Below are positions 11,506 through 18,083 of a stretch of 36,384 nucleotides of DNA, piece by piece (the first letter of the stretch is position 1; the number at the start of each line of letters is the position of its first letter). Under the pieces are notes generated by a model, which was not told where the DNA came from, searched no databases, and worked only from the letters and a program-made list of their open reading frames with translations. The stretch comes from Pirellula sp. (GTDB taxonomy: Bacteria > Planctomycetota > Planctomycetia > Pirellulales > Pirellulaceae), in NCBI GenBank assembly GCA_021299695.1, contig JAJTEK010000019.1, forward strand, positions 1-36,384. The letters are read 5' to 3'. The position numbers were made by a program, and so were the translations under genes.

Positions 11506-12927
11506 CTAACCGACCTTGGGACGGACGCTCAGGTCCTGAAGCGAGACTTCTGGCATGGAAGTTTGGGATTCGGCTGGCACGAACGTGGCGTTGTTAGGCA
11601 ATCCTTGCCGGATCGGTTCGGGCAAGGTGCCTTTGAGGACACGCATGTCGACGCCGTTTCCTGCAAGCTTACCGGCGCAGCCGATGCTCATGCGGCAGTG
11701 GACTAGGCACAAGTCGTCTTGGTAGTGTTTCGAGAGGACCTCAGCGTGCGTGGCAAGCCAAGCGATGGTTTTGCCATCGCCGACAGGCAATCGCAGTTCG
11801 AGTTCCACGAAACTTGAGGTCAACGAATCACTCACGGCCATGGAGAGACGCTGGAGTCCGAGTCCGCTTAGGGCCGAGATGGGGATCGCATTGGGGTAGC
11901 GCTCGTGGACCAACGAAATCCGCTCGTCGGCGCCGGGGCAATCGCATTTATTGAGCACCAGCAGAGTGTCTTTTTCCTGAATATCAAGTTCCTTGAGGAC
12001 TTTATATACCGACGAGATCTGCTGGAATACCGATGGGTTGCTCGCGTCGGCCACATGCATGAGCAAATCGGCTTGCCGAGCCTCTTCGAGCGTCGCTCGG
12101 AAACTTGCGATCAGGTGGTGAGGTAGATCGCGAATGAAACCGACGGTATCGCTCAGCAAGATCGGGCCCCACCCCGGTAGCATCCAACGTCGCGTGCGGG
12201 TATCGAGTGTCGCGAAGAGTTTGTCGGCAGCTTCGACCCCCGCACCTGTCAACGTGTTCATCAGAGTGCTTTTGCCGGCGTTGGTGTAACCGACGATCGA
12301 GACGCAGAAGGTTCCGTCGCGCGAGGCGACTTCCCGGGCTTTTCGCTTCTCGACTTTCGACAAATCCATCTTCAGATCATGGATTCTTTTCTCGGCCAAT
12401 CGGCGGTCGACTTCCAATTGCTTTTCGCCAGGACCTCGCATCCCGACACCCATGGTCTGACGCGACAGGTGGGTCCACATCCGCTTGAGCCTCGGCAGCG
12501 AGTATTCCAACTGAGCCAACTCGACGGCTAGGCGCGCTTCGTGGGTGCGGGCGTTGGTTGCGAAGATGTCGAGAATCAATTCGGATCGATCGATGACCTT
12601 CGTGCCAAGAGATTTCTCGAGATTCCTGGTCTGGGCTGGGGTCAAGTCATTATCGAAGAGGACCACGTCGGCGCCGACGTGCTCGACAAAGTTGACCAGT
12701 TCCTCGACCTTGCCTTTACCTAGGTAGGTCGAATGATCTGGATGCTCGCGTTTTTGGAAGATGGTGCCACAGACCTCGATTCCGGCGGTGTCTGCAAGCC
12801 CCTTGAGTTCATCGAAGGGATCATCCGAGACAAAATCGTTGGGGAGCAGGAGTCTGGCAAGTACTCCTTTTTCGTTGGTCAAACTTTGGGATCGTTCGTC
12901 CGTGCGCACTAGTTTTGGGTACTCCAC
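11506..12927 (-). CDS. hflX: Ribosome-associated GTPase HflX
   Basis: A 473-residue HflX family GTPase. The N-terminal HflX domain (about 30-150) and the glycine-rich linker GMRGPGEKQLEVDRR (162-176) precede the G domain: G1 GYTNAGKST (213-221), G3 DTVGFI (260-265) and G4 NKCD (326-329). The C-terminal domain (about 385-440) has the usual position. HflX is known to bind the 50S subunit, split stalled ribosomes during heat or antibiotic stress, and hydrolyse GTP. The start is GTG at 12927 (MEYPKLVRTDERS); no strong ribosome binding site is visible. A minus-strand promoter with a perfect TATAAT lies about 80 nt upstream (13004-13034). The SDR gene follows after 2 nt. Confidence 0.97.
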   Translation of the reverse strand: MEYPKLVRTDERSQSLTNEKGVLARLLLPNDFVSDDPFDELKGLADTAGIEVCGTIFQKREHPDHSTYLGKGKVEELVNFVEHVGADVVLFDNDLTPAQTRNLEKSLGTKVIDRSELILDIFATNARTHEARLAVELAQLEYSLPRLKRMWTHLSRQTMGVGMRGPGEKQLEVDRRLAEKRIHDLKMDLSKVEKRKAREVASRDGTFCVSIVGYTNAGKSTLMNTLTGAGVEAADKLFATLDTRTRRWMLPGWGPILLSDTVGFIRDLPHHLIASFRATLEEARQADLLMHVADASNPSVFQQISSVYKVLKELDIQEKDTLLVLNKCDCPGADERISLVHERYPNAIPISALSGLGLQRLSMAVSDSLTSSFVELELRLPVGDGKTIAWLATHAEVLSKHYQDDLCLVHCRMSIGCAGKLAGNGVDMRVLKGTLPEPIRQGLPNNATFVPAESQTSMPEVSLQDLSVRPKVG

Positions 12928-13003
12928 TGAAGGTGCAAAGGGGGATGGGGTATCGAGGAAAATCGTTCAAGCTCCGGACACTTAAGGTTCATCGCTTCTG
13001 AGC

Positions 13004-13034
13004 ATTATACTCCATCGCTCGGGGCGCTCGGCAA
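13004..13034 (-). promoter_or_regulatory. Putative sigma-70 promoter of hflX
   Basis: On the minus strand, TTGCCG (13029-13034) and a perfect TATAAT (13004-13009) are separated by 19 nt. The -10 is ideal, while the -35 and the spacer are sub-optimal. Transcription would start near 12997, leaving a leader of about 70 nt before the GTG of hflX. Confidence 0.5.
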
Positions 13035-13244
13035 GCCATCGAGAGTCCTCGAGAATCCGTGGGTTGGTCTTGGTTAGACGTTTGGAGATTCCGGTTCGTT
13101 CGCCCTTGAATGGTCCGATGCGTCAAAAATCCACATTTTCTTCCGTGGCCACCTCGGCACCCGCAGCCCTAGGGTGCCTTCAAAGGGGACTTCGAAGGCC
13201 GAAAGACCCAAGGGGAGAATTGGCTCCTTAGAGGCGGGCTCCTT

Positions 13245-13260
13245 GGTGGCTTGTGCCACC
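13245..13260. other. Perfect 6-bp hairpin in intergenic region
   Basis: GGTGGC and GCCACC are separated by TTGT. The stem is GC-rich and perfect but has no following T-run, so it is not a standard intrinsic terminator for either direction. Purpose unknown. Confidence 0.4.
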
Positions 13261-13363
13261 TCGTTCTGAGAGTCCTTGCAGTCGGTTTTCCCGTTAGCTT
13301 CTCCCCAGAGCCCTTGGTGTTCAGGTCCAGCGAAAAGCCGATGAAAATGTCGTTTTATTTTGC

Positions 13364-13391
13364 TTGACTTTAGTTTTCCAGTACGAATAAT
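13364..13391 (+). promoter_or_regulatory. Putative sigma-70 promoter of the 75-residue protein gene
   Basis: TTGACT (13364-13369, five of six consensus) is followed by a 16-nt spacer and AATAAT (13386-13391, five of six). The flanks are AT-rich (CGTTTTATTTTGC upstream). The predicted transcript starts near 13398 and has a leader of about 68 nt. Confidence 0.6.
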
Positions 13392-13465
13392 CCGATACAA
13401 CTTAACTCAGGAACGTGGCCGGGAGCCCGTATCTGACGAATCTCACACAAAAGGTTCCAGACAGT

Positions 13466-13693
13466 ATGAGCAATCTTTGCAAAAATGTTTTCGAAGCCAT
13501 TCTCAAGTACGGTCACGATGAGGACTTCGATCCTATCGCTGATGGGAAGTTCTTGCCCACCGATGCACCGGCTGGCTCGCAAGAGAAGATCGAAGTTCTT
13601 CGACGACGTGTGGAACTCGGACAGCCCCTGTGGCACAATGACGACCGAGTCGACTACAGTGGTTTGACCGGCGCTATTCGCCCACGCGAGTAA
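13466..13693 (+). CDS. Small acidic protein of unknown function (75 residues)
   Basis: The frame is open from 13415, but the ATG at 13466 (MSNLCKNVFEAILKYG) is the best start: AAAGG lies at 13449-13453 and a good promoter about 75 nt upstream. The product has two parts. Residues 1-37 are amphipathic helix and acidic loop (YGHDEDFDPIADGKFLP), and residues 38-75 contain a helix (EKIEVLRRRVELG) and an ordered-looking tail (QPLWHNDDRVDYSGLTG). The tail looks strongly conserved-type sequence, rich in Trp, His and Tyr, and I believe similar short proteins occur in other planctomycetes, although I cannot check. No signal peptide or membrane span. Function unknown. A putative terminator hairpin lies about 100 nt downstream (13794-13823). 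Confidence 0.75.
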   Translation: MSNLCKNVFEAILKYGHDEDFDPIADGKFLPTDAPAGSQEKIEVLRRRVELGQPLWHNDDRVDYSGLTGAIRPRE

Positions 13694-13793
13694 CAACAAA
13701 GAGTCAGTTCGTCCTACACATCCTAGCTGGGTCTTGGTAAAAATCCCAAAGATCCACTAAGTAGGTTGAACGATGTACAATCAAGAACCAACG

Positions 13794-13823
13794 AAGGCCG
13801 GGTTTGATTCCAGACTCGGCCTT
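13794..13823 (+). terminator. Possible intrinsic terminator or attenuator
   Basis: A perfect 7-bp stem, AAGGCCG (13794-13800) and CGGCCTT (13817-13823), has a 16-nt loop and is followed by CTGCTATTGTTG, which is only moderately T-rich. It could end the transcript of the 75-residue gene, or act as an attenuator ahead of the TOPRIM gene. It lies inside a 68-codon open frame (13773-13979), which argues against that frame being a gene. Confidence 0.5.
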
Positions 13824-13845
13824 CTGCTATTGTTGAATCGAGCCC

Positions 13846-13912
13846 TGCGCTTCGAGCTCCCCGGGCTTGAGCGCCCCGGGCTTGAGGTCCTCGGGCTTGA
13901 GGTCCCCGGGTT
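13846..13912. repeat. 15-bp tandem repeat, three clear copies
   Basis: Copies with the core CCGGGCTTGAG start at 13861, 13876 and 13891 (the last begins TCGGG), each 15 nt long. A partial copy follows at 13906, and a degenerate one precedes at 13846. The repeat is GC-rich, lies 67 nt ahead of the TOPRIM gene, and would encode P-G-L-E-V pentapeptides if read in the 13773-13979 frame. Replication slippage is the likely origin. Confidence 0.75.
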
Positions 13913-13978
13913 CTCTTGCCAATCAAGCGAATTGAGCTCTGCCAATGTCCTCCCTGAGACCCATGCAAAGGACTTGTA

Positions 13979-14641
13979 ATGACCCAACCCCCAAGAGGAA
14001 ACGGCGTTTCATCCGCCGCTGAACCAACGGCTCTGGAGTTGTTCTTGGTAGAAGGAGAATCGGCAGCGAGTGCAGTTGAACGTGTGTGCAATAGCCAATT
14101 TCAATCGGTCCTAGCGATGCAGGGCAAGCCGATGAACGCGTGGAAAGCGACGCGTGCCAAGGTCGAGTCGAACGGTTTGTTCGAACAACTGATCGCCAAA
14201 CTTGGAGCCGGAATCGCAGACGATTTCGATATCGAAAGATGCCGCTTTGCAAGAATCATCCTACTCTTTGATCCCGATGCAGATGGAATTCACGGATGCT
14301 CTCTGATGCTCTGGTTTTTTTACCGCTGGATGCCACAGCTCCTCGAAGCCGATCGACTCTTGGTTGCCAACCCCCCGATCTGCGAGCTGCTCGATCGAAC
14401 GACCCTCAAAAGAGCCTATCCCTCCCATCCTGTCCAACGCGACAAGATACTAGCCGAATGGAATGCTGGTTTGTCACAGGGAGACTCTGACCGCTTCGAG
14501 ATGCGGCCATACCGTGGGCTTGCAAGCCTCGGGCAGGAGATCCTCTACAGCACTTGCGTATGCCCTGAGACTCGATTGCTCAGACGGCTTCGAACGCAAG
14601 ACGCACTGGCTTCGTTGAAGGTCTTCGGTGCACAAAAGTAG
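13979..14641 (+). CDS. Stand-alone TOPRIM protein resembling the C-terminal catalytic part of GyrB/ParE
   Basis: A 220-residue protein that matches, piece by piece, the TOPRIM part of type IIA topoisomerase B subunits. ELFLVEGESAASAV (residues 20-33) corresponds to the GyrB ELYLVEGDSAGG motif with its catalytic Glu (here E25). GKPMNAWKA (49-57) matches GyrB GKILNVEKA. KLGAGIADDFDIERCRFARIIL (74-95) is followed by the metal motif DPDADG (D98, D100, D102; GyrB DADVDG). FFYRWMPQLLEADRLLVANPP (113-133) matches FFYRQMPELIE...IAQPP. The end, YRGLASLGQEILYSTCVCPETRLLRRL (178-204), matches the GyrB tail YKGLGEMN..LWETTMDPE. The GHKL ATPase and transducer domains are absent, so it cannot act alone as a topoisomerase. 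AAAGGA (13967-13972) is a good ribosome binding site 6 nt before the ATG. It might pair with a GyrA-like subunit, bind DNA, or modulate gyrase; this is inference. Confidence 0.88.
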   Translation: MTQPPRGNGVSSAAEPTALELFLVEGESAASAVERVCNSQFQSVLAMQGKPMNAWKATRAKVESNGLFEQLIAKLGAGIADDFDIERCRFARIILLFDPDADGIHGCSLMLWFFYRWMPQLLEADRLLVANPPICELLDRTTLKRAYPSHPVQRDKILAEWNAGLSQGDSDRFEMRPYRGLASLGQEILYSTCVCPETRLLRRLRTQDALASLKVFGAQK

Positions 14642-14673
14642 CTGGAATCTACGCTCGAGAAGCCGCCGGATCC

Positions 14674-15654
14674 TTACTCACTGTGATTGTTTTGATCTTG
14701 GTCAAAAACCCAAGGCCCCCTAGGGATATCGAGCCACCATTGCTGTTTGTTTTTCGCAATCGCAAGCAGGTCCTTAGACCCGATCGGTGCGTCGGTCTGA
14801 GTCAATCGCAGCGACTTGGCTAGCGAGCCGATGATTTGCTCGGGCCGTACGCCTTGTTCTCGCCAGTAGGACAAGCGGGAATCACCATGGCGTTTGGCGA
14901 GTCGCTTGCCATCGGGGCCCACGACCAAAGGGACGTGAAGCCAACCCGGAGGTTCCCACCCTAAAGCTCGGTAGATCGCAAGTTGCCGATAGGTGCTATA
15001 GACCAGATCGTCTCCCCGAACGACGTGGTTGATCTCTTGCTCATGATCATCGACCGTCACGGCGAGTTGGTAGGCAGGTGGCCCATAATTCCGAGCGACG
15101 ATAAAATCCCCGAGGGACACTTTAGCATCGAGCTGCTGTGGACCAAGATAATCGTCGATCCACTGCATGGTTCCTTGGCTGAATCGAAACCGCCAAGCGT
15201 AGCGGTGTCCTTGAGCGTCGAGTTTCGGAGCGTCCAACGCCGAACGATCAGCGCAGCGACCGGGATAGACCACCCCATCGAGGAACGATTCGTGAGGTGC
15301 CGACGAACATGCTTCGATTTGCGTGCGACTGCAGGTACAAGGATAGACGAGCTCCTGTCGCTTGAGTTGTTCGAGAGCATCGAGGTAGCGATCGGTTCGG
15401 GAGGATTGCAAGGGTGCGGTTTGATCCCAGTCGATTCCGAGCCAACGCAGGTCATCGATCGCTTGTTGGTTCGCCCAGGACTTGGTTCGGGGGGTGTCGA
15501 GGTCTTCGACCCTCAAGAGCAACTCGCCCTGAGAGCTTCGGACGTGCAACCAAGCGATCAAGAAAGTGCGTGCATTGCCCAAGTGCTGAGCTCCGGTCGG
15601 CGAAGGAGCCAACCTTCCACGGACTCGGTCGGATTGCATCGAATTAGGAATCAC
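14674..15654 (-). CDS. gluQ: Glutamyl-Q tRNA(Asp) synthetase (GluQ-RS)
   Basis: A 326-residue paralogue of the glutamyl-tRNA synthetase catalytic domain, without the C-terminal anticodon-binding domain. It shows GRLAPSPTGAQHLGNART (13-30, containing the HIGH-type HLGN), the substrate loop LLLRVEDLDTPR (45-56), a GluQ-RS zinc site (C106-x-C108, then Y130-x3-C134), and the KMSKS-type loop KRLAKRHG (250-257). Known function: it activates glutamate and attaches it to the queuosine at position 34 of tRNA(Asp). It overlaps the upstream lipoprotein gene by 4 nt (start and stop share ATGA at 15651-15654), which points to translational coupling and decides for this start rather than the ATG at 15639. 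It ends 32 nt from the convergent TOPRIM gene. No queuosine synthesis gene lies in the window. Confidence 0.95.
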   Translation of the reverse strand: MIPNSMQSDRVRGRLAPSPTGAQHLGNARTFLIAWLHVRSSQGELLLRVEDLDTPRTKSWANQQAIDDLRWLGIDWDQTAPLQSSRTDRYLDALEQLKRQELVYPCTCSRTQIEACSSAPHESFLDGVVYPGRCADRSALDAPKLDAQGHRYAWRFRFSQGTMQWIDDYLGPQQLDAKVSLGDFIVARNYGPPAYQLAVTVDDHEQEINHVVRGDDLVYSTYRQLAIYRALGWEPPGWLHVPLVVGPDGKRLAKRHGDSRLSYWREQGVRPEQIIGSLAKSLRLTQTDAPIGSKDLLAIAKNKQQWWLDIPRGPWVFDQDQNNHSE

Positions 15655-18083
15655 AACTCATCGGATTCTTCGGGCAATGGGGGCATGAGCCGCAGATCGT
15701 GCTCCACAGGCCCGAGCGATCCGGTCTGAGCGTGCATCAGAAGGAGTGTGTTGGAACGACGCTGAAGAGTCGTCGGGGCGATTTGAAGCTTGGATAATTC
15801 CGCATCGGTCCATCCGACGGCGATCCATTCATCGGGCTGCAATGGATATTTAGAGAGGATATCTTCGACCATGGCTTGGAGCTTCATCCGGTCGGGATCG
15901 GTCTCGGTGGTCTTCCAAGAAAGGGCAGATGACGCTGGGGGAACTTGGATTTGGCCATTGGCCGCATCGCCTGCACGGATCGTTCCGACCTCGGCTCGCT
16001 TGAGCTCGCCACTGGTTGCAAAACCAATCAGGACCACATCGCGCAGTGTATGGTTCGATCCATTGGTCACTTTATATCCACTGCCTTCCGGATCGATCGT
16101 CCAGGAGACCCCTCCACCGAGCGCGATGACTTCTTCGCTCTGGAGCAAGCCGGTGGTGTTTGAGAGGACGGGGAAGGCCTGGAACCCGGTCCCTTTGGAG
16201 TCGGCGATTCGATAGGGCAGGAGTTTGCCTCGGGCCGCGACGCTGCGTGAGCGATGCTGCGGCGTGGGACTCACGACCCCTTGGCCCTCGGGATAAATGA
16301 CTTGGTAATTGGTCGTCAGCGAAGAATAAAGTGCATGAAACGAGGACAGAAGTGCGCGAGGGTGTCGGTTGTGTATTTCCACCAGAGCTACCGAAGTTTC
16401 GCTGCGCGAAAATCCGACGTCCAGTTGCACCGCTTTGGCAATCACGAAGACACCGGCGATGGCGATCAGCGGCGCGGCAACCCAAGCCAATTCGAGCCTT
16501 CGGATCAGTCTGAAGAACAGCCAATTGACGGGAACCAAAACGATCAGATACGCGCAGAGCCACTTGAGGATCGTGCTGAGATTCGGGACAGAGATTCCTG
16601 AGAGTTTTTTCAAGTAGTCGTTAGCTCCCTTGCTGACAATCGCGTTGCTGTTCCAAGCTCCAAAACTCGAGGGTTTCGGTGCAGCGACCTCCAGTGTGGG
16701 TTTTAGGGGATTGGCGCTTTGGGTGGTCATATCAAGATCTCTGGCCCAAAGGCGCAAACGCGTATTGAAAGTCGAACTTCGCTCAAATTCCATCGCGGAT
16801 CGTCGTTCCGTCAGTCCAGAATTGTCGTTTGTAGCAACAGCGACCTGATAGACCAACTTGCGAGGGTTGTCCAGATCGGAGTTGATTTTCACATCGCGAG
16901 ACGGTTTGCGCAAGACGGCATTGTGGATCAAGGCCGAGTAGGATGGCCAGTTGACGAAGGCCGAGTCGTTCATAGGAAAGCTGGTCATCACGATGCGACC
17001 TTGGCCGACCAAGCGTTCGGCGACGAGTCCCTCGAGATTTTCGATCCAGGCGCTACCCGAGTCGATTTGCCCCTGGAGGATCGGAATCGGTTTGTTGGCT
17101 TTCAATGGAATGGCTTGGTCGGCAAGATGGTAGCGCAAGCACCAGGAATCCGGATCGTTGAGCAGCAGGAGTTGGTCTTGCGAAAGTTCGCCGGACGAGG
17201 TGTTTTGGATCGGTGCATAGGGTTTGAGGAACGAGGTTTCGATCCCGGCGATTGCATCGGGACCATTGATGATGATGGTCCCTCCGAAATGGAGCCAATC
17301 GAGGATCGCATCCTGTTGGTCTTGAGGCAATATGCTAAGCGATACATCGTTCAGAACGATATGCGAGACACTGGTCATGGTAAGCAGTTGAGAAGGAATC
17401 GCTTCTGCCATCTCTTCTTCCGAGATATCGATGATTCGATGTGGCATGACTTTGAATTTCATATCCGGTTCGTACTGTGGCCAAACCACACAGTCCAAGC
17501 CTCGCCAGAAGACTTGGCGGGAAACATCTCGGCTCAATATGAGCATGTCATACTGGTACTCTTTGAGGAGCTTGAGCAGGAACCTCTCATCGAGCAATGA
17601 GGAGCCGAGTCCGCGTTGGGCGTATCGTGTGAAGATCGAGAGTTGATTGTTCAGTGGCGAATTGGTCGCGGTCTGTTCCGAAGCTGGCACGTCGGTCTGA
17701 AGGACCTTCATTTCGATGGTCTTCTCCTGGCCTTTGGTCAGCGAGACGTCGCGCTCGAACTCCAGAGCAAGACCGTCAGGCCATAGACTCGTGGCTCGAT
17801 CATTGCGATCGACTTCGTAGAGCGATGCGGTGAGCGACTCATCATTTTGGTTGGCCTTAAGCTTTTGGCGGGTTTGATACCAATGCCCTGGTTTGACCGA
17901 ATTTCCGACGATCTCTTTAGAGAAAGGTAGTGTTCGAAGTTCGTCGGCTACCAACCGTAGCTTTCTTTTTTGCTTCTCTTTCTCGGTGAGCTTCTCCGAG
18001 TCATCCTGGCTTGTGCAGCCACGGCACCCGGTGATCAAGACAAGAAGCAAGAGCAACCAAACCAGACGTGAGATCCGAAGCAT
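15651..18083 (-). CDS. Large lipoprotein with GATase-like domain and two internal membrane spans
   Basis: The frame is open from 18134, but the ATG at 18083 is the likely start: it gives a lipoprotein signal (MLRISRLVWLLLLLVLITGC, lipobox LITGC, lipidated C20) and begins 5 nt after the stop of the upstream gene. Product of 810 residues. Residues about 25-170 are beta-rich; residues about 170-370 resemble the glutamine-amidotransferase-like fold (YDMLILSRDV, HIVLNDVSL, QQDAILDWLHFGGTIIINGP, GQGRIVMTSFPMND) seen in many membrane-linked planctomycete proteins, without an obvious catalytic Cys. Two membrane spans follow near 505-525 (LKWLCAYLIVLVPVNWLFF) and 535-556, then a beta-rich C-terminal domain. 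Such proteins often accompany MoxR/VWA (Bat-type) clusters, but none lies here. Function unknown. It overlaps gluQ by 4 nt. Confidence 0.82.
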   Translation of the reverse strand: MLRISRLVWLLLLLVLITGCRGCTSQDDSEKLTEKEKQKRKLRLVADELRTLPFSKEIVGNSVKPGHWYQTRQKLKANQNDESLTASLYEVDRNDRATSLWPDGLALEFERDVSLTKGQEKTIEMKVLQTDVPASEQTATNSPLNNQLSIFTRYAQRGLGSSLLDERFLLKLLKEYQYDMLILSRDVSRQVFWRGLDCVVWPQYEPDMKFKVMPHRIIDISEEEMAEAIPSQLLTMTSVSHIVLNDVSLSILPQDQQDAILDWLHFGGTIIINGPDAIAGIETSFLKPYAPIQNTSSGELSQDQLLLLNDPDSWCLRYHLADQAIPLKANKPIPILQGQIDSGSAWIENLEGLVAERLVGQGRIVMTSFPMNDSAFVNWPSYSALIHNAVLRKPSRDVKINSDLDNPRKLVYQVAVATNDNSGLTERRSAMEFERSSTFNTRLRLWARDLDMTTQSANPLKPTLEVAAPKPSSFGAWNSNAIVSKGANDYLKKLSGISVPNLSTILKWLCAYLIVLVPVNWLFFRLIRRLELAWVAAPLIAIAGVFVIAKAVQLDVGFSRSETSVALVEIHNRHPRALLSSFHALYSSLTTNYQVIYPEGQGVVSPTPQHRSRSVAARGKLLPYRIADSKGTGFQAFPVLSNTTGLLQSEEVIALGGGVSWTIDPEGSGYKVTNGSNHTLRDVVLIGFATSGELKRAEVGTIRAGDAANGQIQVPPASSALSWKTTETDPDRMKLQAMVEDILSKYPLQPDEWIAVGWTDAELSKLQIAPTTLQRRSNTLLLMHAQTGSLGPVEHDLRLMPPLPEESDEL

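Follow-up and report, generated by a model that had tools for sequence, protein, structure and literature searches.

Among the described systems closest to the gene reported here is the GyrA2/GyrB47_2 complex, also called topoisomerase II prime. Its B component, GyrB47, is a laboratory fragment spanning residues 393-804 of E. coli GyrB; it contains the TOPRIM domain without the ATPase and transducer, and it serves GyrA in ATP-independent relaxation, as sections of the published account describe (PMC7897471). The ATPase-less core of human TOP2-beta performs strand passage, and loss of the ATPase domains raises the propensity for DNA damage; one proposal is that ATPase domains keep DNA cleavage by type IIA topoisomerases in check (all from sections of PMC10853770). 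The reason type IIA topoisomerases require ATP even for reactions that run downhill has yet to be settled.

In phage T4, where it is gp60, and in other short phage subunits, the C-terminal part of the B subunit is encoded apart from the ATPase part (sections of PMC2988022). The T4 ATPase half, gp39, is the product of a nearby gene. Arabidopsis GYRB3, a GyrB-like protein of reduced length, stands apart from the gyrase pair; it is without the TOPRIM motifs and, in a partly purified state, fails to bind E. coli GyrA, according to sections of PMC2845627. Excerpts of a planctomycete study (PMC8567305) describe a shorter GyrB paralogue that is without an insert, and not a free TOPRIM.

Here we describe a natural gene of 220 codons, known from sequence, whose product resembles GyrB47 in having a TOPRIM domain without an ATPase. 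It belongs to a family for which, unlike T4, no ATPase half was found, and its domain content is the opposite of that of GYRB3. Among the titles listed by our literature searches, which covered open-licence PMC papers only, none points to this family.

Results

A free-standing TOPRIM gene

The window, meaning the whole stretch of DNA analyzed (36,384 nucleotides), makes up contig C109 in an assembly of 5.49 Mb that is 95% complete; among named genomes, its nearest relatives are Pirellula and further MAGs of Planctomycetota. An ORF of 220 aa at 13979..14641 on the + strand starts with ATG, preceded by what reads as a Shine-Dalgarno-like AAAGGAC, and its domain and fold matches identify a free-standing type IIA TOPRIM-tail protein. 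Both flanking genes of annotated size are on the opposite strand; they encode an HflX-type GTPase and a protein with a class I tRNA-synthetase catalytic domain, read here as GluQ-like. Upstream of the gene lies a terminator-like hairpin with a T-rich tail (13793..13824, +), a weak call given that two such sites were seen versus 1.2 expected; it may terminate an upstream transcript. The scan that gave this hairpin returned no promoter-like site. A repeat scan placed 4.1 copies of a G+C-rich 15-bp tandem repeat between hairpin and gene (13849..13910), and an Rfam search of 12900-15700 found no match. Also upstream is a small ORF of ~75 aa (13466-13693, +), which has no Pfam match and is kept in seven genomes of one subclade.

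Pfam Toprim (PF01751) matches residues 20-124 of the protein above its cut-off (E 2.2e-10). The best NCBIfam model is GyrB (E 3.2e-40), aligned over residues 12-216 to model positions 416-614 of 641 with a score of 138.1 bits, far under the cut-off of 740; the Pfam GyrB C-terminal domain stays below threshold (13.1 versus 29.8 bits). No match to the GHKL ATPase or transducer domains was found in the protein with Pfam or NCBIfam, and the top chains of a PDB sequence search are GyrB and ParE (best E 7.7e-31). The protein modeled alone with AlphaFold (mean pLDDT 87.9, pTM 0.83) adopts the GyrB/ParE TOPRIM and tail fold, with Foldseek matches to GyrB/ParE structures at E values down to 8.4e-19, in a model biased toward the B-subunit fold by an alignment in which 6 of the 15 rows are B subunits. 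The sequence and structure matches thus bear out the original prediction of a free TOPRIM that has neither the ATPase nor the transducer, with an amendment on the tail. The TOPRIM domain is whole, but the tail is incomplete: free proteins have 0-15 residues past the F216 column (median 7), versus 26-29 (median 27) in B subunits. Judged by these matches, the protein corresponds solely to the TOPRIM domain and the greater part of the tail in a type IIA topoisomerase B subunit.

A conserved family distinct from B subunits

We aligned 76 B subunits with 56 free proteins collected from Pirellulales, Acidimicrobiales, and one Chromatiaceae plasmid; the copy in G023, broken into two pieces, and that in G729, found later, were left out of the 56. 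In an unrooted tree of the 56 free proteins and 39 of the 76 aligned B subunits, in which G006 and a few others form long branches, the two groups fall on opposite sides of one branch with support of 100/99. Members outside the window's clade share 34-40% identity with the window protein (16-row alignment).

The active-site residues have been preserved despite this divergence. The catalytic glutamate, E25 of the VEGESA motif (codon 14051..14053, +), is E in 56/56 free proteins and 76/76 B subunits, and alignment places D98, D100, and D102 in the DPDAD metal site (14270..14284, +); both motifs are intact and located where the original prediction put them. Homologues have not shed these residues: glutamate and DxDxD are complete in 55 of the 56 free proteins, the exception (G502) having N at the middle Asp. 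K50, H105, and R199 likewise occur together in 55/56, with G569 lacking K50 and H105. In 12 pairs of free proteins, dN/dS ranged from 0.043 to 0.213. Decay of the gene is ruled out by these ratios, and recent truncation of gyrB is ruled out by the 100/99 tree split. The view that this is not a decaying pseudogene therefore stands, on the dN/dS values and the nearly universal quartet, whereas the suggestion of a DNA-binding relic is unlikely given purifying selection and the single grouping. The original observation holds up, and its interpretation as a relic need no longer be considered. Together, these data show a conserved family of putative free catalytic half-subunits that are relatives of type IIA topoisomerase B subunits. 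The letters L.DC of the pre-TOPRIM linker are present in 76/76 B subunits and 27/56 free proteins, the window protein being without them; such remnants fit an origin of the family from a B subunit through N-terminal loss.

Residues rebuilt relative to B subunits

The free proteins share with the GyrB/ParE TOPRIM and tail the fold, the metal-site residues and the H105 that follows them, K50 in a likely DNA-binding loop, and R199 in the tail region. In contrast to GyrB/ParE, they are without the ATPase, transducer, and C-terminal extension, and they occupy the other side of the tree branch. Where the family has Q48, P51, P99, A182, and C193, B subunits mostly have R/K, I/V, A, G, and T, respectively; Q48, P51, and C193 are found jointly in 52/56 free proteins and 0/76 B subunits.

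Two of these family marks, Q48 and P51, fall within residues 48-58 (QGKPMNAWKAT; 14120..14152, +). In the AlphaFold model, these residues link strand 42-47 to helix 59-64. By inferred mapping, this segment likely corresponds to the loop that a study of M. tuberculosis gyrase names the DNA-binding loop (sections of PMC2923608). There, the R/K present in 76/76 B subunits has become Q in 54/56 free proteins, and I/V has become P at the P51 site. The Q48 site presumably corresponds to E. coli K447, a quinolone-resistance position. With the metal-site residues kept and the loop changed, the grip on DNA, and perhaps that on the A subunit, would therefore have been rebuilt. Positions that are invariant or nearly so in B subunits (G30, G31, I106, T108, T112, E183, and M184) are unconserved in the free proteins. 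The latter are also without about the last 20 residues of B subunits, and the C-terminal extension motif R..[FWY]I occurs in 0/56 of them versus 65/76 B subunits.

A patchy distribution

Within the genus, 19 of 27 genomes have a match at E 1e-52 and 8 are without one. Across the order, 39 of 246 genomes match at 1e-53; 30 of these 39 were read and included among the 56 free proteins, and 9 were left out. A Planctomycetota sample gave matches in 25 of 392 genomes at 1e-48. Besides the free protein of the window itself, 23 of these lie in open frames of at least 639 aa, and one lies in a frame of 301 aa that was left unread. Free proteins were found in 10 of 298 Acidimicrobiales genomes, and all 10 were read. 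In a sample of 396 genomes from the phylum of Acidimicrobiales, 113 matched at 1e-53; the centre genome aside, four frames of 266-422 aa were not read, and the rest are at least 540 aa long. Because thresholds of 1e-48 to 1e-53 were chosen to exclude most B subunits, these counts are lower bounds that miss divergent members such as G006. One further copy resides on a plasmid of Candidatus Thiodictyon syntrophicum, annotated as a “toprim domain-containing protein.” On a Priestia and a Rhizobium plasmid, the best matches lie in frames of 663 and 697 aa, which are full-length B subunits and not free proteins, and viral contigs scanned with both the protein and the alignment yielded no relative.

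This patchy distribution suggests horizontal transfer. The G006 copy is very divergent (196 aa) and the G023 copy is broken (L070, L071), which suggests that the gene can be lost.

Genomic context and possible partners

A neighboring or split ATPase gene would point to a fragment. No GyrB ATPase or transducer sequence was found in 52 neighborhoods totaling 798,711 bases, and both control loci matched. The B-subunit domain PF00204 matches only an 839-aa frame in the host genome; another 26 genomes with the family gave 39 matches, every one in a frame of at least 641 aa. A search of 40 genomes found no match to the domain in 3 (G004, G012, and G013), many assemblies being incomplete. The 839-aa frame is a full-length GyrB, whose presence elsewhere in the genome the original prediction had left to be checked. 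It is accompanied by one A subunit gene, also elsewhere, and no second A subunit gene was found in the host assembly at its 95% completeness. Since the host has a full-length GyrB and one A subunit, the free protein is an addition and not a replacement.

The A-subunit domain PF00521 is present in 40/40 genomes and in the 26/26 further family-bearing genomes, where it has one match in 12 genomes, two in 13, and three in one. These 26 are a subset of 45 family-bearing genomes outside the genus, one more (G031) being within the 40-genome set. In the 46 family-bearing genomes among these, the A subunit is always encoded either on a different contig or at a distance above 150 kb from the free TOPRIM gene. 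Among the genus genomes (G000-G024), the window's clade has one A subunit (12/12) and a second clade has two (6/6), several of the assemblies being incomplete. Because genomes like the window's have one A subunit, the family needs no dedicated one; if there is an A partner in such genomes, it would be the common GyrA.

Of the 25 largest groups of neighboring genes, none occurs in more than 8 of the 52 regions. Neighbors recurring across lineages are a short-chain dehydrogenase, a Gfo/Idh-type protein, an ABC ATPase, and a PQQ-like protein (assigned by eye); as these are large common families at differing distances, no partner can be read from them. Gene order is common to close relatives and differs between genus subclades and between lineages. 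With no widely shared neighbor and no ATPase half nearby, any partner would therefore act in trans.

Two local arrangements deserve description. Just upstream of the free TOPRIM in G020 are genes for a GHKL ATPase of the anti-sigma-factor type and for a STAS protein (L068, 10343-11208, -), and similar ORFs are present in G023; as an ATPase partner, the G020 gene was set aside because of its anti-sigma-factor type and its position beside the STAS gene, and the proximity is taken as chance. On the Thiodictyon plasmid, a UvrD-type helicase gene is followed by a gene for an RNB-domain ribonuclease and then, 30 bases further on, by the free TOPRIM gene. This row (L072, 7695-12648) has genes with a PRTRC system annotation in its vicinity. 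Two free proteins were scanned with PADLOC, and neither matched; its GajB matches are to the UvrD-type helicase of this plasmid, and no GajA is named in the annotation of 24.6 kb around the copy.

Discussion

The reading that we rank first, and hold tentatively, is that these proteins are free catalytic half-subunits that would work with the chromosomal GyrA without ATP. The protein would bind Mg2+ through E25, D98, D100, and D102 and would dock on the winged-helix part of chromosomal GyrA, replacing GyrB. The resulting ATP-independent cleavage or relaxation complex could consist of GyrA2 and two free TOPRIMs, or it could be mixed with one GyrB. The changed loop, with R/K replaced by Q and I/V by P, may tune how strongly this complex holds and cuts DNA; together with the lost C-terminal extension, it could hold cleavage down. 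For the cell, the outcome would be ATP-free relaxation or cutting of DNA, or lower net supercoiling through competition with GyrB.

Several observations are consistent with a partnership with GyrA: the quartet persists in 55/56 proteins despite identities of 34-40%, the predicted fold is of the B type, selection is purifying, the free proteins form one side of a single tree branch, the L.DC linker letters persist in 27/56, and an A subunit is present in every genome tested. GyrA2/GyrB47_2 and the ATPase-less TOP2-beta core set precedents for type IIA activity of this kind. The main counterpoint, drawn from the same alignment, is the loss of B-invariant positions and of the C-terminal extension, which leaves room for a nuclease or a decoy; if the lost positions form the A-subunit contact, binding to GyrA would be weakened or changed. 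The R/K-to-Q change in the loop also argues against this partnership, as does the lack of a dedicated A subunit or shared operon linking the gene to topoisomerases. G502 and G569 carry changes at conserved positions, the G023 copy is broken, and 8 of 27 genus genomes are without a match, so the function is dispensable.

The same losses bring up a possible but somewhat unlikely alternative, namely, a self-sufficient, metal-dependent TOPRIM nuclease or nickase that needs no A subunit to act on DNA or RNA. An enzyme of this kind might be expected to keep what this family keeps, the metal-site residues, and to dispense with B-specific positions and the C-terminal extension. In the genomes tested, the free TOPRIM has neither an A nor a B subunit gene beside it, and the Thiodictyon copy lies in a row with genes for an RNB-domain ribonuclease and a UvrD-type helicase. 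However, neither OLD, RNase M5, nor another TOPRIM nuclease family is among the matches listed from the Pfam, NCBIfam, PHROG, and PADLOC searches, and the type IIA tail fold and R199 have been kept, although a lone nuclease would not obviously need them. In topoisomerases, moreover, the TOPRIM metal site acts together with a tyrosine of the A subunit, which also counts against a nuclease working alone.

Unlikely, too, is a noncatalytic gyrase decoy or modulator, which would occupy the seat of GyrB on GyrA, or the DNA gate, and thereby lower gyrase activity or shield the enzyme from poisons. The likeness of the protein to the GyrA- and DNA-contacting part of GyrB would suit such a role, as would the family-specific Q48 at the R/K site of B subunits. 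Yet a decoy has no need of an intact metal site, and the full quartet is present in 55/56; nor did PADLOC match the two free proteins scanned.

A split topoisomerase in the manner of gp39/gp60 of phage T4, with this protein as one half and an ATPase half supplied by a gene elsewhere, is very improbable. Beyond the T4 precedent, the model finds matches in short phage proteins (203 and 210 aa), and the GHKL-type protein upstream in G020, with its similar ORFs in G023, could be a candidate half, but it is of the anti-sigma-factor type and sits beside STAS. Against a split stand the 52 neighborhoods devoid of GyrB ATPase or transducer sequence, with both controls matched, and the confinement of PF00204 to the 839-aa host frame and to frames of at least 641 aa in the 26 further genomes (39/39). 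PHROG 7229 (172 positions), which from its length we take to be of the gp60 kind, matches residues 68-187 only; a split of the T4 type would thus fall inside TOPRIM, whereas the free family has TOPRIM whole. Finally, a recent truncation or decaying gyrB fragment, which the broken G023 and very divergent G006 copies in the genus might evoke, is next to impossible given the 100/99 tree split, dN/dS of 0.043-0.213 in 12 pairs, and a full-length GyrB elsewhere in the genome.

A bolder form of the partnership with GyrA, which we regard as rather doubtful, is that this family provides a natural ATP-free type IIA topoisomerase. GyrA would then be shared between GyrB and a dedicated half-subunit with a rebuilt loop, and the cell could switch from supercoiling to ATP-free relaxation or cleavage. 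Should the free proteins indeed work with GyrA, they would be a new factor in the control of gyrase; should they be lone nucleases, this would be, to our knowledge, the first type IIA TOPRIM known to have become such an enzyme. Overall, a natural ATPase-less family that is under selection in several bacterial groups and carries an altered loop would show how an ATP-free DNA gate can be tamed.
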